DNA from: Gemmatimonadota bacterium
GTDB lineage: Bacteria; 4572-55; J002
Assembly (NCBI GenBank): GCA_003697105.1
Contig: RFFQ01000126.1
Location: 1-8,400, forward strand
DNA: 8,400 nucleotides
Reading direction: 5' to 3'
The position numbers and the translations under genes are program-made. Shown here piece after piece: positions 1-8,400 of the stretch (its first letter is position 1; each line of letters opens with the position of its first letter). Under the pieces are notes generated by a model. That model was not told the DNA's origin, did no database searches, and worked only from the letters and a program-made list of their open reading frames with translations.

Positions 1-47
1 CTTATATTAAGGGCAAAAGATCAAAATAGCGCGAAAACATTTTTTTC

Positions 48-91
48 ATACCTGCGTGAAACACTTGATATAGCACACGTTTCATAGGTAT
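48..91. promoter_or_regulatory. Bipartite inverted repeat (operator or RNA hairpin) upstream of the first gene
   Basis: Two nested arm pairs are visible. ATACCT (48-53) pairs with AGGTAT (86-91), and TGAAAC (57-62) pairs with GTTTCA (79-84). Together they give 12 potential base pairs, interrupted by a 3x1 internal loop and closed by a 16-base loop. No T-run follows, so it is not an obvious terminator of a gene to the left. It could be a regulator site for the sulfur amino acid gene at 281, or a transcript structure from a promoter outside the window. The symmetry is seen directly; function is inferred. The rest of 1-167 holds no convincing gene, only a perfect 10-bp palindrome AACCCGGGTT at 129-138. 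Confidence 0.35.
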
Positions 92-167
92 TCTTCAGGG
101 CTGATAGAAACCGGTGACAAATACGATTAACCCGGGTTCCATCTTTTCACCGAACTGTTCAGCAAAA

Positions 168-183
168 TTCGATTATCATCGAA
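168..183. promoter_or_regulatory. Perfect dyad TTCGAT-N4-ATCGAA, possible operator
   Basis: TTCGATTATCATCGAA has two perfect 6-base arms around a 4-base spacer. It ends nine bases before the predicted -35 element at 192, a position typical of an activator site. Its spacing resembles a LysR-type site, and that family regulates many sulfur amino acid genes, but no regulator gene is visible here. The symmetry is observed; the role is inferred. Confidence 0.35.
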
Positions 184-191
184 GAAAATTA

Positions 192-221
192 TTGCCATAC
201 CCATATTTACCGCTGTATATT
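192..221 (+). promoter_or_regulatory. Candidate sigma70 promoter for the gene at 281
   Basis: TTGCCA (192-197) and TATATT (216-221) each match the -35 and -10 consensus at five of six positions and are separated by 18 bases. Transcription would start near 228, giving a leader of about 50 bases. The ribosome site AAGGAG at 269-274 lies six bases before the ATG at 281. Confidence 0.45.
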
Positions 222-280
222 CGTCAATATTCCCATTTTACCGAATTTTCATCAGATTTTAATACTCCAAGGAGATCATA

Positions 281-1465
281 ATGCTTCCTATTTCTAATGT
301 AGATGATGCCACCAAAGTGATTCATGCTGGCATTCCAGAAGACGCACATGGTGCGGTAATTCCCCCAATTTACCAAACCTCTACGTTTAAATTCAAGAAT
401 GTGGACCACGGGGCGCAACTATTCGCGGGAAAAACCGAGGGATTTATCTATACCCGGATGCGCAACCCCACTATTGAGGCGATGGAAGATAGTGTCGCCG
501 CCCTCGAAGGGGGTTACAAAGCACTAGGGTGTGCTAGTGGTATGGCGGCAGTTCATACCATCTTTTTTGCCCTGCTCGGACAGGGTGATCATGTGATTTG
601 CAGTGAAGCGGTTTATGGTCCCACCACCACGTTGCTCAAAATGATGAGTGCCAAATACGGGGTAGAGGTGGATTTTGTGGACACTTCCCATGCCGAAAAT
701 GTTCGGACGGCAATCAAACCAAATACAAAGTTGGTCTTTGTGGAAACCCCCTCAAATCCGACGGTGTTAGTCTCGGATTTAGAAGAAATCGCCTTTATTG
801 CCCACCGGAATGGGGCTCAACTTGCGGTGGACAACACCTTCTCCAGCCCGATTTTACAAAAGCCGCTGGCGTGGGGCGCGGATATTGTGATGCACAGCAT
901 GACCAAGTTTCTTAACGGACATGCGGATGTCGTGGCCGGGATTATCGTTGTCAACGATGAAAAACAGTATGATCTGTTCCGCAATGTGCTTAACCAACTG
1001 GGTGGCGTGATCGATCCCTTTAACTCATTTTTGGTTCACCGCGGGATCAAAACGCTGGCACTGCGCATGGAACGCCATTGCGAGAACGCCCAACGCATCG
1101 CGGAATGGCTGGAACGGCATCCCAAAGTGGATTGGGTACACTTCCCCGGCTTGCCAAGCCATCCTCAATATGAGATTGCCCAAAAACAGATGGATGGTCC
1201 CGGAGGGGTCATCGCATTTGAATTAAAAGGAGGTCTCAATGCCGGTAAAACGGTGATGAACCGCGTTAAATTATGCCAGTTGGCAGTTTCATTGGGAGGT
1301 GTGGAAACCCTGATCCAACACCCCGCCTCAATGACCCATGCCTCGATGGGCCCAGAACTACGCCAGCAATCACGCATTACGGATGGTCTCGTCCGGATTT
1401 CGGTCGGGATTGAAAACGTTGGTGACCTTATTGCCGATCTGGATCAAGCGTTGGCGGCAGCTTAG
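281..1465 (+). CDS. Trans-sulfuration-family PLP enzyme, probably methionine gamma-lyase-like
   Basis: This 394-residue cytosolic enzyme belongs to the Cys/Met metabolism PLP family (fold type I), whose usual length is 380-400. The PLP lysine is K209 in HSMTKFLNGH, D184 would contact the pyridine nitrogen, Y57 and R59 in YTRMRNPT bind the cofactor phosphate across the dimer, Y112 stacks on PLP, and R372 in LVRISVG binds the substrate carboxylate. The N-terminal stretch (TFKFKNVDHGAQLFAG) and the C-terminal HPASMTHASM closely resemble methionine gamma-lyase, which makes methanethiol, 2-oxobutyrate and ammonia from methionine. However, the cysteine typical of that enzyme (Cys116 in Pseudomonas putida) is replaced by P114 in VYGPT. 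O-acetylhomoserine sulfhydrylase, cystathionine gamma-synthase or cystathionine gamma-lyase activity therefore remains possible. The start is set by AAGGAG six bases upstream. It stands alone between its own promoter and a terminator at 1564. Confidence 0.85.
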   Translation: MLPISNVDDATKVIHAGIPEDAHGAVIPPIYQTSTFKFKNVDHGAQLFAGKTEGFIYTRMRNPTIEAMEDSVAALEGGYKALGCASGMAAVHTIFFALLGQGDHVICSEAVYGPTTTLLKMMSAKYGVEVDFVDTSHAENVRTAIKPNTKLVFVETPSNPTVLVSDLEEIAFIAHRNGAQLAVDNTFSSPILQKPLAWGADIVMHSMTKFLNGHADVVAGIIVVNDEKQYDLFRNVLNQLGGVIDPFNSFLVHRGIKTLALRMERHCENAQRIAEWLERHPKVDWVHFPGLPSHPQYEIAQKQMDGPGGVIAFELKGGLNAGKTVMNRVKLCQLAVSLGGVETLIQHPASMTHASMGPELRQQSRITDGLVRISVGIENVGDLIADLDQALAAA

Positions 1466-1521
1466 ACCATTCCCCAACCGCGAATCTTTAAAAAGCGTAT
1501 TTTAACTCCAAACTTTTTTCC

Positions 1522-1552
1522 GGTGCGACGTACTTTGAAAGTGCGTCGCACC
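1522..1552. other. Strong 14-bp hairpin after the first gene
   Basis: GGTGCGACG (1522-1530) pairs perfectly with CGTCGCACC (1544-1552). The stem extends inward through one T-G wobble and four further pairs to a 3-base loop. No T-run follows directly, so it is probably a transcript-end stabiliser or part of a double terminator with the hairpin 12 bases downstream. It could also be the body of a small RNA, but no separate promoter was seen. Confidence 0.5.
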
Positions 1553-1563
1553 TGATAACCCAC

Positions 1564-1584
1564 AAATCCCCATTAGGGGGTTTT
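1564..1584 (+). terminator. Rho-independent terminator of the first gene
   Basis: AAATCCCC (1564-1571), loop ATTA and GGGGGTTT (1576-1583) form an 8-bp stem that includes one T-G wobble and runs directly into T residues (TTTT at 1581-1584). The T-run is short, so termination may be partial and helped by the hairpin at 1522-1552. It separates the first gene from the operon that begins at 2005. Confidence 0.6.
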
Positions 1585-1895
1585 GCATTCACGAATGGCT
1601 TCAATCCTTTGGAGCGGGACTGGAGCATTTACACTGCCATCTGTTGATAAAAGAAACGAAACTGAGTTCATGGCAATTCTCTTTGATGTTGGGTTCAAAA
1701 ATTATTATATCTCACTGGAATATAATATGTTATAGGGGAAGTGCTAACGTTTTATAAAGAATATTTATGAATAATTTAAGCTATCGATGTTACTCCAATT
1801 GTTCACATTTTTAATGCTTCTATAGTACAATACTTTCGCCAAACGTTGTACGTTATTTGGAATCGTGGATTAAATTCTGATCAATTTTTCCGTAA
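1585..1895. other. AT-rich intergenic stretch without a supported gene
   Basis: No RNA gene or convincing coding region is visible. One 46-codon reading frame (1595-1735, ATG to TAG) has no ribosome site and is not called. An inverted repeat GTACAA (1825-1830) / TTGTAC (1846-1851) lies beside an alternative promoter-like pair, TTCACA (1802-1807) and TACAAT (1826-1831) with 18-base spacing, which could be a second upstream promoter for the operon at 2005. Confidence 0.4.
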
Positions 1896-1924
1896 ATTTG
1901 GCGAACATACTGTAGTCCTATAAT
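1896..1924 (+). promoter_or_regulatory. Probable promoter of the cystathionine synthase/lyase operon
   Basis: A perfect TATAAT -10 element sits at 1919-1924. The -35 region 17 bases upstream (ATTTGG, 1896-1901) is poor, which is common where a regulator controls the promoter. The start would be near 1931, giving a leader of about 74 bases. One operator-like repeat covers the spacer (1900-1917) and a second lies just past the predicted start (1936-1953). Confidence 0.5.
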
Positions 1925-1953
1925 TTATTCAATATGACGAACATATTGTCGTC
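1900..1953. repeat. Pair of operator-like direct repeats flanking the -10 box
   Basis: GGCGAACATACTGTAGTC (1900-1917) and GACGAACATATTGTCGTC (1936-1953) agree at 14 of 18 positions and lie 36 bp apart. The second copy is also a dyad with perfect GACGA/TCGTC arms and 14 of 18 symmetric positions. Bracketing the TATAAT at 1919-1924 is the classic layout for repression by a dimeric regulator, presumably one sensing cysteine, sulfur or methionine status. The sequences are observed; the regulator and signal are inferred, and I do not recognise the motif. Confidence 0.45.
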
Positions 1954-2004
1954 AGGATCGTTTTTCCCCTTTCTTTTTACACCTTTAAACAATTGGAGGA
2001 TTTC

Positions 2005-2982
2005 ATGTCAGGTCGTTTTAACACGATTTTGGATGCCATTGGGAACACGCCGTTAGTCCGTTTGAACCACATCCCGGTCGGTATAAAGCCAACGCTATGG
2101 GCAAAGCTGGAATATATGAATCCGAGTGGCAGTACGAAAGACCGGATGGCGTTGTATATGGTGGAAGATGCCGAACGGCGCGGGTTACTCAAGCCCGGCG
2201 GTACCATTGTCGAAAATTCATCCGGTAATACGGGAGCGGCAATGGCAATGATCGCTGCCATCAAAGGGTATAAGTGCATCATCACCATGCCCGATAAAAT
2301 GAGTGATGAAAAACAAAATCTCATGCGGGCTTACGGCGCAACGGTAGTGGTGACGCCCACGGATGTTCCTGCCGATTCCCCCGAAAGTTACTATAGTACC
2401 GCCCGGCGCATTGCCAAGGAAACTCCCGGCTCGTGGTATCCAGATCAGTACAACAATCCCATGAACGTGGAGGCCCATTACCATACGACCGGACCCGAAA
2501 TCTGGGAACAGACCCAAGGGGAAATCGATTATCTGGTGGCTGGAATTGGCACGGGTGGCACATTGAGCGGCGCGGGACGGTATCTGAAAGAGCAAAACCC
2601 GAACATCAAAATCATTGCCCTAGACCCTATCGGCTCGGTATTTTATGACTACTTCAAGCACGGTAAAATTCCGGAAACATCCGTGTACAAAGTGGAAGGT
2701 ATTGGCGAAGACTATCTGGTTGAGGCGGTTGATTTTAATATCATTGATGATATGATTCAAGTCAATGACGAAAATTCGTTCCTCATGGCACGCCGTCTGG
2801 CACGCGAAGAAGGGCTTTTTGCCGGAGGCTCCAGCGGTAGTGCTGTCTGGGCGGCACTGGAACTGGCAAAGACGATAGACACGGAAAAAAATATCGTGGT
2901 CATCCTACCTGATTCCGGAACGCGCTATCTCAGCAAATTATACAATGACCAATGGATGAAAGATAACGGATTTTTAGAATGA
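2005..2982 (+). CDS. cbs: Cystathionine beta-synthase (catalytic core only)
   Basis: This 325-residue fold type II PLP enzyme should condense serine with homocysteine to cystathionine, the first step of reverse trans-sulfuration. The PLP lysine is K45 in PSGSTKDR, the substrate loop is SSGNTG (72-77), the phosphate loop is GTGGT (182-186), and GGSSGS and ILPDSGTRY lie near the C-terminus. DSPES (124-128), DQYNNP, VEGIGEDY and the ending YNDQWMKDNGFLE match the animal CBS core better than O-acetylserine sulfhydrylase. The N-terminal heme region and the C-terminal regulatory CBS domains are absent, as in many bacterial enzymes. I chose the ATG at 2005 because GGAGG (1995-1999) lies five bases before it; a TTG at 1993 overlaps that site. 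It pairs with the gamma-lyase 16 bases downstream. Cysteine synthase is the alternative, but the neighbour favours CBS. Confidence 0.85.
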   Translation: MSGRFNTILDAIGNTPLVRLNHIPVGIKPTLWAKLEYMNPSGSTKDRMALYMVEDAERRGLLKPGGTIVENSSGNTGAAMAMIAAIKGYKCIITMPDKMSDEKQNLMRAYGATVVVTPTDVPADSPESYYSTARRIAKETPGSWYPDQYNNPMNVEAHYHTTGPEIWEQTQGEIDYLVAGIGTGGTLSGAGRYLKEQNPNIKIIALDPIGSVFYDYFKHGKIPETSVYKVEGIGEDYLVEAVDFNIIDDMIQVNDENSFLMARRLAREEGLFAGGSSGSAVWAALELAKTIDTEKNIVVILPDSGTRYLSKLYNDQWMKDNGFLE

Positions 2983-2998
2983 TAGGAAAGGAAAACAG

Positions 2999-4159
2999 AT
3001 GAAAATTGAAACTCAATTGATTCATATCGGGGAAGAACCCAATTTGAAAGAGGGAGGCTCTGGTGATGTGGTGATGCCGATCCATTTAGCCTCAACCTTT
3101 GCGCGCCAAAAAGTAGATGAACCGACTGCAGGTTATGAATATTCCCGCTCCGGTAACCCCACCCGCGACGGTCTGGAAAAACGATTGGCCACATTGGAAG
3201 GGGCAACCTATGGTTTAGCCTTCGCCTCCGGACTGGCAGCAGAAACAACCCTGTTCCTGAGTTTACTGAAAACAGGAGACCATGTTATTGCGTTTGATGA
3301 CCTGTACGGCGGCTCTCGACGTTTGTTTAGCCGCATCTTCCATGAAAACTTTGACGTCGCAATTAGTTACGTGGATGCCCGGAATCCAGAAAACGTCGAA
3401 GCCGCTATTAACGACAATACCCGGCTCATCTGGATGGAAACCCCCACCAACCCCTTGCTCAAACTATGCGATATTGCTGCTATCGCCGAAATCGCGAAAG
3501 CACACCACTTAATATTGGTGGTAGATAACACCTTTATGAGTGCGTACTTCCAAAATCCGCTGAAACTGGGTGCGGACATCGTTATGCACAGTACCACCAA
3601 GTACATGAATGGGCACAGCGACTCGGTTGGCGGTTGTCTAATGCTCTCGGATGATCACCTGCATGAAAAATTACGCTTTACCCAAAATGCCGCCGGTGCG
3701 ATTCTTTCCCCCTTTGATAGTTTTATGATTTTACGGGGGCTGAAGACCCTCGCCGTACGAATGAAACAGCACGAAGCCAATGCACTTGCCATTGCCCACC
3801 ATCTGGAAGCCCATCCGAAAGTAAAACGGGTCATTTATCCCGGTTTGGAAAGTCATCCCCAACACGATCTGGCTAAAAAACAGATGTCCGGCTTTGGCGG
3901 GATGATCTCCTTCGAGCTAAATGGTGGCTTGGCAGAAGCGAACACATTTTTGGAAAATATTCGGTATTTTGCGCTGGCAGAAAGTCTGGGCGGTGTAGAG
4001 TCCCTGATTGAATGTCCCGCTCTGATGACCCATGCCTCGGTTCCGAAAGCGGCACGAGAACAAATCGGGCTATCCGATTCATTGATTCGGATTTCTGTCG
4101 GAATTGAACATGTAGATGACCTGATCGAAGATATGGATCAGGCACTACGCCAGATTTAA
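2999..4159 (+). CDS. Cystathionine gamma-lyase
   Basis: This 386-residue fold type I PLP enzyme should split cystathionine into cysteine, 2-oxobutyrate and ammonia, completing reverse trans-sulfuration with the gene before it. The PLP lysine is K201 in HSTTKYMNGHSD, D176 contacts the pyridine ring, Y48 and R50 in YSRSGNPTR hold the phosphate, and Y103 in DDLYGGS stacks on PLP. FASGLAAE, METPTNP, VVDNTFMS, IYPGLESHPQHDLAKKQ, LAESLGGVESL and PALMTHASV follow vertebrate and bacterial gamma-lyases almost word for word. The ribosome site AAAGGA (2987-2992) is six bases before the ATG, and only 16 bases separate it from the upstream stop, so co-transcription is expected. It belongs to the same family as the enzyme at 281 but is clearly a different subfamily. 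Cystathionine gamma-synthase is the alternative; the CBS neighbour argues for the lyase. Confidence 0.88.
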   Translation: MKIETQLIHIGEEPNLKEGGSGDVVMPIHLASTFARQKVDEPTAGYEYSRSGNPTRDGLEKRLATLEGATYGLAFASGLAAETTLFLSLLKTGDHVIAFDDLYGGSRRLFSRIFHENFDVAISYVDARNPENVEAAINDNTRLIWMETPTNPLLKLCDIAAIAEIAKAHHLILVVDNTFMSAYFQNPLKLGADIVMHSTTKYMNGHSDSVGGCLMLSDDHLHEKLRFTQNAAGAILSPFDSFMILRGLKTLAVRMKQHEANALAIAHHLEAHPKVKRVIYPGLESHPQHDLAKKQMSGFGGMISFELNGGLAEANTFLENIRYFALAESLGGVESLIECPALMTHASVPKAAREQIGLSDSLIRISVGIEHVDDLIEDMDQALRQI

Positions 4160-4191
4160 ATGCCCGTATGGATAACAAGTGGGTGCATTTC

Positions 4192-4219
4192 AAGGCGGAT
4201 CGAAAGATTCGCCTTTTTT
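4192..4219 (+). terminator. Strong rho-independent terminator of the cystathionine operon
   Basis: AAGGCGGATC and GATTCGCCTT form a 10-bp stem with one G-T wobble around a GAAA tetraloop. The transcript then runs into six consecutive T residues (4214-4219). This is a textbook intrinsic terminator about 30 bases after the gamma-lyase stop codon. Confidence 0.9.
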
Positions 4220-4231
4220 GATCTAATCACG

Positions 4232-4260
4232 TTGACAAGGAGGTTTGGATGTGGTATTTT
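4232..4260 (+). promoter_or_regulatory. Near-consensus sigma70 promoter of the aminotransferase-cmk-R-M unit
   Basis: A perfect TTGACA (4232-4237) is followed after exactly 17 bases by TATTTT (4255-4260), which matches the -10 consensus at four of six positions. It lies just after the terminator of the previous operon. Transcription would start near 4267. Its strength suggests constitutive housekeeping expression of the downstream genes. Confidence 0.65.
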
Positions 4261-4266
4261 GATAAA

Positions 4267-4384
4267 ACCTCATTCAGGTGGATTGATGTTCCGCTTCAAA
4301 ATACCCCTTCTTGGGGAAACGGATCATATAAATTTTTATTTATACTTGTTATTTTTATTATTTTAGTTTTTAGGAGGTCTTATT
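4267..4384 (+). promoter_or_regulatory. Leader of about 118 bases before the aminotransferase
   Basis: The leader holds two short hairpins, ACCT/AGGT near 4267-4280 and CCCC/GGGG near 4303-4316. An extremely AT-rich stretch (about 4324-4370) follows, and then a strong AGGAGG (4372-4377) seven bases before the ATG. No known riboswitch class is recognisable. The unstructured AT-rich part may act as a translation enhancer. A short reading frame crosses the region from 4160 but runs through the terminator and promoter, so it is not called. Confidence 0.35.
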
Positions 4385-5716
4385 ATGGCATTTACTCCGG
4401 TTCCGTTTGATGCCAAGGTGGTGGCGTCACGTATTAGCGAATGTCCCATGCCGATTGGTATCGCCTCGATTCGAGAAGTGAACAAAGTAGTGAATCTGAT
4501 CGAGCAGGATTTGGGTGTCCGTTACATCCGCATGGAATTTGGGATTCCCGGCTTATCACTGAGTCCGATTGCCTTAGACGGTGAAAAAGAGGCGCTAGTT
4601 GAGCATCAGTTAGGGTCCGTTTATCCGTCCTTTGAGGGCGCACCGGAGCTCAAGCAGGCAACGGCTGATTTTTGTCATGCCTTTTTGAATCTGAAAATAG
4701 ACCCGAAATGTTGTATCCCCACCAATGGAGCAATGCAGGGTGGATTTGTTAGCATTGGTGTGGCGGGGAACATCACCGCCGGTAAAGACACAATCCTGTT
4801 TTTGATGCCCGGCTTTCCGGTCAACCAAATGCAAGTGCGCCTGTGGGGCTTAAAGATGGATACACTTGATTTGTACGATCATCGGGGCGAAGCATTGTTA
4901 CAAGCGTTGGAAAACCGCTTTGCCAAAGGGGATGTGGGCGGTCTTTTGTGGTCTAGCCCGAACAACCCGACGTGGGTCTGTTTGAAAGAGGAGGAACTTC
5001 AAGGAATCGGTGAACTCTGTACGAAATATGACGTCATGGCGATTGAAGATTACGCCTATTTGGGCATGGATTTCCGCCAGAACTACGGCGTCCCGTATAA
5101 ACCCCCTTATGCTCCGACGGTAGCTCATTACACCGATAATTATGTTATCTTAATTTCCGGCTCTAAGATGTTTTCCTATGCGGGTCAGCGTATTGGCGTG
5201 ATGGTCATCTCACCGGCATATTTTGAGCGAACGTCAGCGCATCTCAAACAGCGGTTTATAGTAGATAATGTGGGCTATTCGTTCATCCATCCCGGGGTTT
5301 ATGCCACCACAGCGGGTGTTTCTCAGGGGGCACAACACGGCTTAGCGGCATTGCTTCGGGCTTCTGTTGCTGGTGAGTATGATTTTCTGAAAGTGACCCG
5401 AGAATATGCGGATCGCGCCGCCGCCATGAAAAAAGCCTTTTTGGATAACGGTTTTCAGCTTGTCTATGATAATGATTTGGGTGAACCGCTAGCAGATGGT
5501 TTTTATTTTACGCTTTCGTACCCGAACATGACCGGTCCCGAATTAGTGGAAAAACTACTCTATTACGGGGTAAGCGCGATCACGCTGAAAACCGCCGGAA
5601 GTGTCCGGGAAGAAGGTATCCGGGCCTGTGTCTCTCTCACTCCAGTTGATAGAGTGGATGAGCTGGCGTACCGGATGCAACAATTTCATGCGGATCATCC
5701 GGTGGAGTCACAATGA
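4385..5716 (+). CDS. PLP-dependent class I/II aminotransferase
   Basis: This 443-residue cytosolic fold type I aminotransferase has K261 in SGSKMFSYAGQR as the Schiff-base lysine and N194 in SSPNNPTW, D222 and Y225 in EDYAYLG as cofactor contacts. The arginine R413 in GIRACVSLTP is expected to bind the substrate carboxylate. These elements place it with aspartate/tyrosine/alanine-type enzymes that transfer an amino group to 2-oxoglutarate or pyruvate, but the substrate cannot be read from the sequence. It is longer than the usual 390-400 residues, with an extended N-terminus and extra sequence around TVAHYTDNY. AGGAGG seven bases upstream fixes the start. Its stop overlaps the cytidylate kinase start by ATGA (5713-5716), implying translational coupling. 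Confidence 0.85.
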   Translation: MAFTPVPFDAKVVASRISECPMPIGIASIREVNKVVNLIEQDLGVRYIRMEFGIPGLSLSPIALDGEKEALVEHQLGSVYPSFEGAPELKQATADFCHAFLNLKIDPKCCIPTNGAMQGGFVSIGVAGNITAGKDTILFLMPGFPVNQMQVRLWGLKMDTLDLYDHRGEALLQALENRFAKGDVGGLLWSSPNNPTWVCLKEEELQGIGELCTKYDVMAIEDYAYLGMDFRQNYGVPYKPPYAPTVAHYTDNYVILISGSKMFSYAGQRIGVMVISPAYFERTSAHLKQRFIVDNVGYSFIHPGVYATTAGVSQGAQHGLAALLRASVAGEYDFLKVTREYADRAAAMKKAFLDNGFQLVYDNDLGEPLADGFYFTLSYPNMTGPELVEKLLYYGVSAITLKTAGSVREEGIRACVSLTPVDRVDELAYRMQQFHADHPVESQ

Positions 5717-6405
5717 GTTCAAAAAAGCCCATTATTGCCATTGACGGTCCCGCCGGTTCGGGGAAAAGTTCCACGGCACGACAGGTTGCCGCCCGGTTAA
5801 ATTACATCCACATTGATACCGGTGCGATGTACCGTGCGATTACCCTCAAAGTACTACGCCACCAAATCGATGTGAACGATGCCGAAACCATCGGTGAATT
5901 GGCGCACCAAACCGATATCTATCAGGAACGAATCGACGGTGACGTTCATACCTTTTTGGATGGTGAGGATGTTTCTTCGCTGATCCGTACCCCGGAGATT
6001 TCGCAGAACGTGTCGCAAGTCGCCAGTATACCCCGTGTCCGGCAACGGCTGGTGCAATTCCAGCGGCAGATGGGGGAAAAAGGAGGAATTGTCCTCGAAG
6101 GACGTGACATCGGGACGGTCGTCTTCCCCAATGCGGAAATCAAAATCTTTATGCAGGCTTCCATTGAAGCCCGTGCTCAGCGCCGGCTCAAAGATTTGCA
6201 GGCGGATGGCATTGAGGTTGATCTCAAAGAATTGGAAGCCGAAATTGCCGCCCGCGATCACGCGGACTCCACACGCCAGACTAGCCCTCTTAAGCAAGCA
6301 CCGGATGCCATTTTGCTGGATACCACTACTCTGACAATGGAGGAACAAGTTCAATTTATCATTGATTTACATGATCAGTGGCTCAAATCCAGAGATGAAT
6401 CATGA
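5713..6405 (+). CDS. cmk: Cytidylate kinase (CMP/dCMP kinase)
   Basis: This 230-residue enzyme phosphorylates CMP and dCMP with ATP in the cytosol, feeding CTP and dCTP pools. The Walker A loop is GPAGSGKSS (12-20). It is followed by the substrate-site motif DTGAMYR (35-41), EGRDIGT (129-135) and the lid RDHADSTRQTSPLK (181-194), all standard for bacterial Cmk. Its length is normal for the family. GGAG at 5704-5707, inside the aminotransferase gene, lies five bases before the ATG, and the start overlaps the aminotransferase stop. Elsewhere cmk often sits beside ribosomal protein S1, aroA or ispH; here it is followed instead by an R-M pair, with the ribosome site of the methyltransferase overlapping the kinase stop codon. 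Confidence 0.97.
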   Translation: MSSKKPIIAIDGPAGSGKSSTARQVAARLNYIHIDTGAMYRAITLKVLRHQIDVNDAETIGELAHQTDIYQERIDGDVHTFLDGEDVSSLIRTPEISQNVSQVASIPRVRQRLVQFQRQMGEKGGIVLEGRDIGTVVFPNAEIKIFMQASIEARAQRRLKDLQADGIEVDLKELEAEIAARDHADSTRQTSPLKQAPDAILLDTTTLTMEEQVQFIIDLHDQWLKSRDES

Positions 6406-6419
6406 GGAGATTGGTTGTA

Positions 6420-7346
6420 ATGGAAATTCGAGATCAAGTCAGGTTGCCTTTGACCATCAAGCCCGGTTCACCGATCTTCCGAACACGGTTGCCAATTAAC
6501 AATGTGAAAACGTGTGATTGCAAACCCAACCATATTAATTGCTTGACAGCCAAAGAATGGATTAAGTGTCAATTAGGAGTATGGCAGTTTACATATGAAA
6601 AACGTGATATTAGGGATAAAAACTTGCATCCAGCAACTTTCCCCCTTTCGCTAGCCAAAAGAGTGATTAGTTTGTTCACACATCAGGGAGAACTGGTATT
6701 AGACCCTTTTGCTGGAAGTGGAACCACTTTGTTGGCTGCCCAAGACTTAAATCGTAACGCCATTGGATTTGATTTGCAGGAGAAATATGTTGATTTATGC
6801 GCGGATCGCTTGCAAAGTAACAATCTATTTAACCAAGCGCAACAGATAGCTATTCAAGATGATGCTCTGTATATTCCAGAGTATCTGAAACCTGAAAGTG
6901 TGAGTTTGATTTGGACATCTCCACCCTACGCTAATTTACTTAATCGTAAGCGTAAAAATAAATCAAGGCGCGGTATAGAACGGAAAAATGAGCAATTTGG
7001 CAAAATTGAGCAATACTCTCAAAACCCTCGTGATTTGGGCACAATGACAATTGAACAATACACAACTGCGATGGGGGATATTTTTGAGAACCTGCTGCCA
7101 CTTTTGAAACCAAAAGGTCATTGTGTAATTAACGTGCCCGATATGTGGTGGGAAAACAAGAGAATCACCATACATATTGCTCTTGTAGAAGAACTTCGGA
7201 AACGGGGTTATGAATTGCGCAATACCATTATTTGGGATAGAACGAATATTGTAAATCGGGTCGGTATTTTTGGTTGGCCGTCTAACTACATTAATATGGG
7301 AACTACATTTGAATATTTGCTGGATTTCTGGCGTCCGGATCAGTAA
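6420..7346 (+). CDS. Type II DNA methyltransferase, N4-cytosine type (probable Cm4CWGG specificity)
   Basis: This 308-residue enzyme would methylate host DNA with S-adenosylmethionine and protect it from the endonuclease encoded downstream. The SAM-binding motif I is DPFAGSGTT (95-103), a motif II-like GFDL follows (116-119), and the catalytic motif IV is TSPPY (166-170). SPPY is typical of N4-cytosine enzymes. The order I then IV fits the gamma-like arrangement. An HPATFP segment (70-75) probably corresponds to motif X, and the C-terminal IIWDR and FEYLLDFWRP are conserved in this family. I prefer the ATG at 6420 because GAGGAG (6404-6409) lies ten bases before it; an in-frame ATG at 6402 would add six residues and overlap the cmk stop by ATGA. 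GC content drops to about 40%, against 50-60% in cmk, suggesting transfer. An N-terminal cysteine set (C32, C34, C41, C50) may bind metal. Confidence 0.88.
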   Translation: MEIRDQVRLPLTIKPGSPIFRTRLPINNVKTCDCKPNHINCLTAKEWIKCQLGVWQFTYEKRDIRDKNLHPATFPLSLAKRVISLFTHQGELVLDPFAGSGTTLLAAQDLNRNAIGFDLQEKYVDLCADRLQSNNLFNQAQQIAIQDDALYIPEYLKPESVSLIWTSPPYANLLNRKRKNKSRRGIERKNEQFGKIEQYSQNPRDLGTMTIEQYTTAMGDIFENLLPLLKPKGHCVINVPDMWWENKRITIHIALVEELRKRGYELRNTIIWDRTNIVNRVGIFGWPSNYINMGTTFEYLLDFWRPDQ

Positions 7347-7393
7347 GGATTATTCCTGCAACCGGCAGCGTTGCTTACGACACCGAGACTCAT

Positions 7394-8176
7394 ATGAAAA
7401 TCTACACGAAAGAATCTCTCATACAAGCACTATGTCAAATCCGTGACATGGGGTGGATACCCAATGCTAGAACGGACAACGATGGTGGTATAGGTAATAC
7501 ATTGGAAGATTTACTCGGTATTGAAGAAAACAATCTCCCAATTCCAAACGCATCTGAATGGGAATTAAAATGCCAAAGGCTGAATACCACGTCGTTGGTC
7601 ACTTTATTTCACATGGAACCATCTCCGCGAGCTCTCAAGTTTGTACCATCTATATTATTGCCCCAATATGGATGGCCTCACCAAGAAGCGGGGCGGAAGT
7701 ACGATACAACGGAAATGAGCTTTCGCCAAACGATTAGCGGGGTATCTCGGAGCGACCGGGGATTTATGGTCGTTGTTGATAGGAATGAGTGCAAAGTACT
7801 GGTATCTTTTGATGCTTCTGCTGTTGATTCGCGACATTCGCAGTGGCTTCAAATGGTAGAAAGGCGGGCAGGATTAGGTGAACTAGACCCTCAACCATAT
7901 TGGGGATTTGCAAATTTAGAGCACAAGGCCGGCACTAAACTTTTGAATTGTTTCTTCGTACAAGCCGAAACCAAGAGAGAGAAAGGGCAGCTTTTCTTCC
8001 GGTATTCAAAGATTTTTATTTTGGAATCCTTTAATGTGGAAGGATTATTGCGTGGGTTGGAGCAGGGATTTGTGTTTGTTGATTTTGACGCTCGTACCGG
8101 ACACAATCATGGCACCAAATTTAGGCTTCGCCGAAATAAATTTCCTGAGCTGTATGAAAAAGTTGTAGAAGTCTGA
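7394..8176 (+). CDS. Type II restriction endonuclease, MvaI/BcnI family (probable CC^WGG specificity)
   Basis: This 260-residue protein should cut unmethylated DNA as the partner of the methyltransferase before it. The N-terminus carries the family hallmarks: MGWIPNARTDNDGGIGNTLE, then LLGIEENNLP, then the PD-(D/E)XK core ELK (E57, K59). E38 in GNTLE is shared with the MutH/Sau3AI relatives. The C-terminal HNHGTKFRLRR is also typical. These enzymes act as monomers on CCNGG-type sites (MvaI on CCWGG, BcnI on CCSGG). The position five residues before E57, where MvaI is recalled to have its catalytic Asp, is N52. The gene follows the methyltransferase by 47 bases, has only a weak ribosome site (GAG at 7385-7387) and a small hairpin (GCAAC/GTTGC, 7358-7374) in the gap, which may keep nuclease levels below methylase. 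GC is low, as in its partner. Confidence 0.88.
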   Translation: MKIYTKESLIQALCQIRDMGWIPNARTDNDGGIGNTLEDLLGIEENNLPIPNASEWELKCQRLNTTSLVTLFHMEPSPRALKFVPSILLPQYGWPHQEAGRKYDTTEMSFRQTISGVSRSDRGFMVVVDRNECKVLVSFDASAVDSRHSQWLQMVERRAGLGELDPQPYWGFANLEHKAGTKLLNCFFVQAETKREKGQLFFRYSKIFILESFNVEGLLRGLEQGFVFVDFDARTGHNHGTKFRLRRNKFPELYEKVVEV

Positions 8177-8185
8177 TGCCACCTA

Positions 8186-8249
8186 ACCACAGCGGTACCT
8201 GACCCGCCTTCGGCGGTGGGTAAACGGCACGAAATTCGCCTGCTGTGGT
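8186..8249 (+). terminator. Large branched hairpin after the endonuclease gene, possible terminator
   Basis: ACCACAGC (8186-8193) pairs with GCTGTGGT (8242-8249) and encloses a tight GC hairpin, CCGCC-TTC-GGCGG (8204-8216). GC and four T residues follow (8250-8255). This may end the aminotransferase-to-endonuclease transcript, though the loop is large for an intrinsic terminator. A competing pairing of CCTGACCCGCC (8198-8208) with GGCGGACAGG (8281-8290) is possible, so it could also be a regulatory RNA structure. No tRNA or other known RNA gene was recognised in 8177-8359. Confidence 0.4.
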
Positions 8250-8359
8250 GCTTTTCAAAGTTTCTCGGATTGCCCCGCACGGCGGACAGGTGAGCCACAC
8301 GATCACCCCGTTGGTATCATTCCTCGTCGGGTCCCTTTGGATCGAATTGCTTTTTAGTT

Positions 8360-8400
8360 ATGACGCTCTCAATAGTGATTCCTTGCTACAATGAAGCCCC
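8360..8400 (+). CDS. Glycosyltransferase family 2, 5' fragment cut by the window edge
   Basis: Only 13 complete codons are present, reading MTLSIVIPCYNEA. The pattern SIVIPCYNE is the signature opening of family 2 (GT-A fold) glycosyltransferases, where the first beta strand binds the UDP- or GDP-sugar or the polyprenyl-phosphate sugar donor chemistry begins. Such enzymes act at the cytoplasmic membrane face in cell-envelope polysaccharide or dolichol-phosphate-like sugar synthesis; the specific substrate cannot be told. No in-frame start codon lies between the upstream TGA (8291-8293) and this ATG, so the start is firm. No Shine-Dalgarno sequence is visible, unlike most genes here. Confidence 0.75.
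   Translation, partial: MTLSIVIPCYNEA

Follow-up and report, generated by a model that had tools for sequence, protein, structure and literature searches.

Is the restriction-modification (R-M) system encoded in a stretch of DNA that lacks CCWGG also the cause of that lack? The question is raised by the 8,400 nucleotides analysed here (the window), which form the entire contig C1 of an assembly of 199 contigs (4.18 Mb, 96.9% complete). A first-pass annotation had noted an MvaI-like R-M system in the window together with the absence of CCWGG, and had predicted from this that the window's enzyme is CCWGG-specific. The system is indeed present, as a PF15515 nuclease and an adjacent amino-type methyltransferase (system A). 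The genes of the window are the following:

281 to 1465, + strand: Cys/Met-metabolism PLP enzyme, methionine gamma-lyase / cystathionine synthase family (PF01053), CCWGG-free
2005 to 2982, + strand: cystathionine beta-synthase / cysteine synthase-like PLP enzyme (PF00291), CCWGG-free
2999 to 4159, + strand: cystathionine gamma-synthase/lyase family enzyme (PF01053), CCWGG-free
4385 to 5716, + strand: class I/II aminotransferase (PF00155), CCWGG-free
5713 to 6405, + strand: (d)CMP kinase, cmk (TIGR00017, above cut-off)
6402 to 7346, + strand: methyltransferase of system A, N6_N4_Mtase family (PF01555, 3e-33; PADLOC MTase_II, 4e-138)
7394 to 8176, + strand: endonuclease of system A, MvaI/BcnI family, 260 aa (PF15515, 9e-62)

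The recount of CCWGG in the 8,400 bases gave zero, as had been claimed, and the dozen sites said to be expected by chance agrees with the 11 to 14 given by three null models. Dinucleotide shuffles of the window predicted 13.7 +/- 3.3 sites, a maximal-order Markov model 12.1 (Poisson P(0) ~6e-6), and synonymous-codon shuffles of the seven coding sequences, which hold proteins and codon usage fixed, 11.0 +/- 2.9, with a minimum of 4 in 1000 shuffles. In the window no word of five bases is more depleted than CCWGG, and among the 32 W/S-centred palindromes of that length it also ranks first. The tetramers CAGG and CTGG, put at about fifty, number 57 (22 and 35), and CCSGG, put at more than 20, occurs 23 times. 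The eight GGWCC sites that had been listed were all found (403, 617, 1196, 2491, 4614, 5534, 5746 and 8330), the second at 617 instead of 618. Their use as a control did not survive: GGWCC is itself avoided genome-wide (0.46-0.56) and was therefore rejected as a neutral control.

Genome-wide counts were taken on a 489-kb sample of the same genome (G000; L005-L024, L200-L219). The counter-selection against CCWGG that had been predicted there was borne out, with 151 sites against 731 expected from a Markov model (0.21), a depletion of about five fold, and 110 against 559 expected under codon shuffling in 218 long coding sequences (0.20). Two nulls thus place CCWGG well below what composition, protein sequence and codon usage predict. 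CCSGG stood at 0.77 by the Markov null and at 1.07 by codon shuffling, and by the latter test it is not avoided. Applied to the window, the genome-wide rate gives about 2.5 CCWGG sites, and finding none is ordinary for this genome. We conclude that the depletion is classic restriction-site avoidance. It appears lineage-specific, since the only genome of the same class (G001, a single distant relative), which has no PF15515 gene, has CCWGG at 0.85. That the window belongs to this genome is supported by its cmk, the only one found in the assembly (single match), and by a shared avoidance of GGCC, present 5 times against 23.3 expected in the housekeeping part of the window, as in the rest of the genome; the binning of the contig was taken as sound.

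CCWGG is not the only palindrome avoided. Codon-shuffle ratios were 0.13 for GGCC, 0.03 for GTCGAC, 0.05 for GTATAC and AGATCT, 0.08 for TTCGAA, 0.12 for CTCGAG and CGATCG, 0.38 for GCWGC and 0.56 for GGWCC. This very broad avoidance was seen in the 489-kb sample despite few R-M genes (nine PF01555 stretches, no PF00145), and that of GTCGAC and GGCC is found in G001 as well. AGATCT is the site of BglII, and the genome has a resident nuclease of the BglII family (PF09195), a separate case in which avoided site and enzyme agree. The nuclease gene lies at the end of contig C123, beside the C-terminal half of an amino-methyltransferase (L200:8768-9385, - strand, with 9349-9711, - strand); the missing part may be the methyltransferase N-terminal half with which contig C154 begins (L201:2-292, - strand). 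As for the host, a secreted subtilase-like protein on contig C145 (L204) carries the C-terminal sorting motif YPNPFNP, typical of type IX secretion, which hints at an FCB-group-like organism.

The nuclease of system A matches PF15515 over its full length (positions 1-227 of 227) with 209 bits, for a cut-off of 25, and matches R.MvaI at 1.6e-18 and R.BcnI at 1.4e-8. Its AF2 model (pLDDT 86) has the MvaI/BcnI fold. R.MvaI (CC^WGG; PDB 2oa9/2oaa) is the closer structure, with Z 22.0 to 2oaa over 225 residues, and shares with system A the full-length family match, the HGT.FR C-terminal motif and the EXK part of the active site; R.BcnI (CC^SGG; PDB 2odh/2odi) follows with Z 18.8 to 2odi, then MutH at about 8. 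Identity is low in both cases, about 28% to MvaI and 24% to BcnI. The methyltransferase has motif I (FAGSG) before motif IV (TSPPY) and probably makes m4C. M.TpsD3VI of Thioflexothrix psekupsii, an m4C enzyme of the alpha class that recognises CCWGG (PMC5578853), demonstrates that CCWGG-specific m4C methyltransferases are also found outside the beta class.

Nuclease and methyltransferase are separate, adjacent and co-inherited, as in an orthodox type II system, and the same methyltransferase is paired with the nuclease in ~29 of 80 loci; in most others a different amino-methyltransferase lies directly upstream. This second kind (~50 of the loci L025-L104), encoded immediately before the nuclease, carries motif I in its C-terminal part, which gives the impression of a swap of partners. 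The C-terminal half (254-510) of the PADLOC model PDLC03305, a 513-residue methyltransferase, matches the whole window nuclease (7394-8173), which suggests that fused methyltransferase-nuclease proteins exist in this clade. The clade is spread over Chloroflexota, Bacteroidota, CPR bacteria, DPANN archaea and others; members at ~64-70% identity in CPR bacteria, Micrarchaeota archaea and an ANME-2 archaeon (L031, L035, L049, L072, L085) mark a very wide horizontal spread. Among plasmids and phages, the search for characterised relatives returned only generic family names, all below 50% identity. The Flavobacterium psychrophilum enzyme FpsJVI, specific for CCNGG (PMC11837570), might belong to the clade.

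Alignment with the PDB sequences located the active-site and putative reading residues of the window's nuclease:

7547 to 7549, + strand: codon of Asn52, which stands where PD...EXK has its catalytic Asp (BcnI D55 / MvaI D50); Asn in 80/80 relatives
7562 to 7570, + strand: E57-L58-K59, where the EXK of the active site is kept; invariant columns
7610 to 7612, + strand: codon of His73, equivalent to BcnI His77; His in 80/80 relatives, Thr in MvaI and in the C140 enzyme described below
8117 to 8119, + strand: codon of Lys242, equivalent to BcnI His219; Lys in 79/79 relatives, Ala in MvaI and Gly in the C140 enzyme

The clade reads PN...EWELK where MvaI has PD...EIK and BcnI GD...ELK. System A thus departs from the PD...(D/E)XK active site of these enzymes while keeping its E and K: the catalytic position is Asp in MvaI, BcnI and the C140 enzyme and Asn throughout the clade, one further relative (G232) having Asp. 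The substitution makes an identical catalytic site less probable, and leaves family membership by descent intact. BcnI H77 and H219 are, we assume, the residues that read the central base. At these positions system A has His, as BcnI does and MvaI does not, followed by Lys, found in neither. The choice of the catalytic Asp agrees with the four-residue spacing described for BcnI (PMC4081073).

The age of system A was approached by comparison with an Anaerolineales (Chloroflexota) contig, L025, with which the window has one segment in common:

6405 to 8181, + strand: segment shared with L025, at 93-95% DNA identity (blastn, tblastn)

On both sides of this cassette the flanks are unrelated. The two copies differ by a dS of 0.17-0.26 with a dN/dS of ~0.1-0.2, which points to recent transfer under purifying selection, and the methyltransferases are 94% identical in amino acids. 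In a maximum-likelihood tree the window nuclease and that of L025 fall inside a Chloroflexota clade (100/96, 100/91, 99/93), with bootstrap values that are not fully settled. From the 94% DNA identity to a Chloroflexota copy and this nesting, the cassette looks recently imported. The L025 flanks contain 94 CCWGG sites, the expected rate, and most hosts of the closest relatives likewise have CCWGG as expected (observed/expected 96/91, 28/29, 76/71, 9/10 and 47/37). As a rough estimate, if half of the dS lies on the window branch, neutral drift would remove only 10-20% of CCWGG sites; for system A to lie behind an 80% depletion, selection would have had to speed the loss several fold. Such accelerated loss is possible, and is not the simplest reading. 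Sites of recently acquired systems are less often avoided, Helicobacter being an exception (Rusinov et al., PMC4687349).

A genome search revealed that the edge of contig C140 encodes another PF15515 nuclease. The frame that follows it, ending in ...HKYPATMIPQIGVKVLNELN, leaves the contig and resumes at the start of contig C5 (LNIRRGALLDPYCGSGS...TSPPYGDSRTTVAYGQFS) with a 6-b overlap. System B therefore consists of the nuclease on C140 and a methyltransferase split between the edge of C140 (N-terminus) and C5. An unsplit pair in the same R-M order exists in genome G057 (nuclease 64%, methyltransferase 59% identical). The best PDB match of the system B nuclease is R.MvaI (4.9e-18); it has PD...EIK and TLFT as in MvaI, and the three positions discussed above are occupied in system B and in its relatives by Asp, Thr and Gly, near the Asp, Thr and Ala of MvaI. 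The genes have a GC content of 0.40-0.42 and are AT-rich like those of system A, so that composition does not establish the age of system B. Four genomes carrying type B only have CCWGG at 0.38-0.74 and CCSGG at 0.70-1.10, and G128, which carries both types, has CCWGG at 0.04 against CCSGG at 1.08, in a small set (n = 5) with one member near 0.74.

We examined whether carriers of type A (80 loci and seven genomes) point to its site, bearing in mind that carriers and non-carriers are unmatched by phylum. CCWGG was avoided in 11 of 72 testable type-A sequences and in 5 of 51 non-carriers (p 0.27), and no enrichment appeared after adjustment either. CCNGG was avoided in 11/81 carriers against 0/55 non-carriers (p 0.0025), and CCSGG was shifted in carriers (0.82 vs 1.00) and still associated in a logistic model. 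In a first comparison with 37 non-carriers CCSGG ranked first of 65 motifs; with 58 non-carriers the Fisher test favoured CCNGG and the rank test CCSGG. The subsets defined by methyltransferase type differ, GGWCC being avoided in 10 of 21 carriers of the window's type. Given small effects, unmatched phyla and these differences, a specificity assignment from carrier statistics was rejected.

The reading that we favour, with modest confidence, is that the avoidance stems from a long-resident type II system of CCWGG specificity, mainly system B, system A being a later import from Chloroflexota whose central base (W, S or N) is not fixed by the avoidance. A resident system of this kind would select against sites that escape methylation, and system B, by its MvaI-like residues, would be the main cause. 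MvaI/BcnI enzymes are monomers that nick one strand, turn round and then cut the other (PMC4081073). By its predicted fold the nuclease of system A would likewise be a monomer acting on one strand at a time within CC(N)GG, on DNA that would be protected by its probable m4C methyltransferase, and by analogy both systems may cleave in this way. It is quite possible, and we propose it tentatively, that the window enzyme represents a separate, very mobile clade that has Asn in the active site, reads DNA with a His/Lys pair, cuts CCNGG or CCSGG and is associated with either of two differently arranged methyltransferases, and which here sits beside the true CCWGG system behind the avoidance.

The prediction of the first-pass annotation, in which the window's own endonuclease is a CCWGG-specific MvaI isoschizomer that drives the avoidance, we consider rather unlikely. 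MvaI is its closest solved relative, both by sequence and by predicted fold, and in some type-A carriers that have no type B, CCWGG is strongly avoided and CCSGG largely spared (L030, 3/25; G156, 0.15; G229, 0.09). The window copy also lacks two CCWGG words present in the L025 copy, a difference that outgroups do not polarise at both places. Against it stand the recent import of the cassette, a nearest relative in CCWGG-rich DNA and other close relatives in hosts with the expected CCWGG rate, catalytic and reading positions unlike those of MvaI, and the presence in the same genome of a second family member with more MvaI-like residues. CCWGG does not stand out in the comparison of carriers with non-carriers, and many other palindromes are equally avoided.

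Quite improbable, in our view, is that the avoidance is a relic of a since-lost R-M system, for instance of the EcoRII/PspGI type, neither present system being causal. The sites of lost systems often remain avoided (Rusinov et al., PMC4687349), and GGCC, GTCGAC, GTATAC and TTCGAA are avoided here while no matching nuclease was identified in the genome. Two complete PF15515 systems are nevertheless present now, and no C5 methyltransferase was found. The genome gave no match to EcoRII-C; as the same search was positive in no control genome, this is weak and not evidence of absence. Finally, mutational loss by Dcm-like 5-methylcytosine deamination at CCWGG would deplete the site without any nuclease, and the outer-C products TCWGG/CCWGA are enriched (2119 vs 1727), but we rejected it as very improbable, since the inner-C products CTWGG/CCWAG are depleted (834 vs 1047) and a profile search of the 96.9% complete genome for PF00145 found no C5 methyltransferase.

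Restriction-site avoidance is already known, and our finding is another instance of it, a clean one in an uncultured bacterium. By the standards of Rusinov et al. 2015 (PMC4687349), CCWGG lies far below the threshold of 0.78 and is a site of an orthodox type II family that the genome carries; unlike their cases, there are two candidates of the same family, and many avoided palindromes for which no nuclease was identified. What is new is the second system, the import of system A and its unusual conserved residues. An avoided site together with one matching nuclease does not amount to a specificity assignment; one must also look for further members of the family and ask how old each system is. 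If the clade of the window enzyme does cut CCNGG or CCSGG with Asn in place of Asp, it would offer an accessible test of how variable the metal site of PD-(D/E)XK enzymes can be, and of the way in which the central base is recognised by the MvaI/BcnI scaffold.
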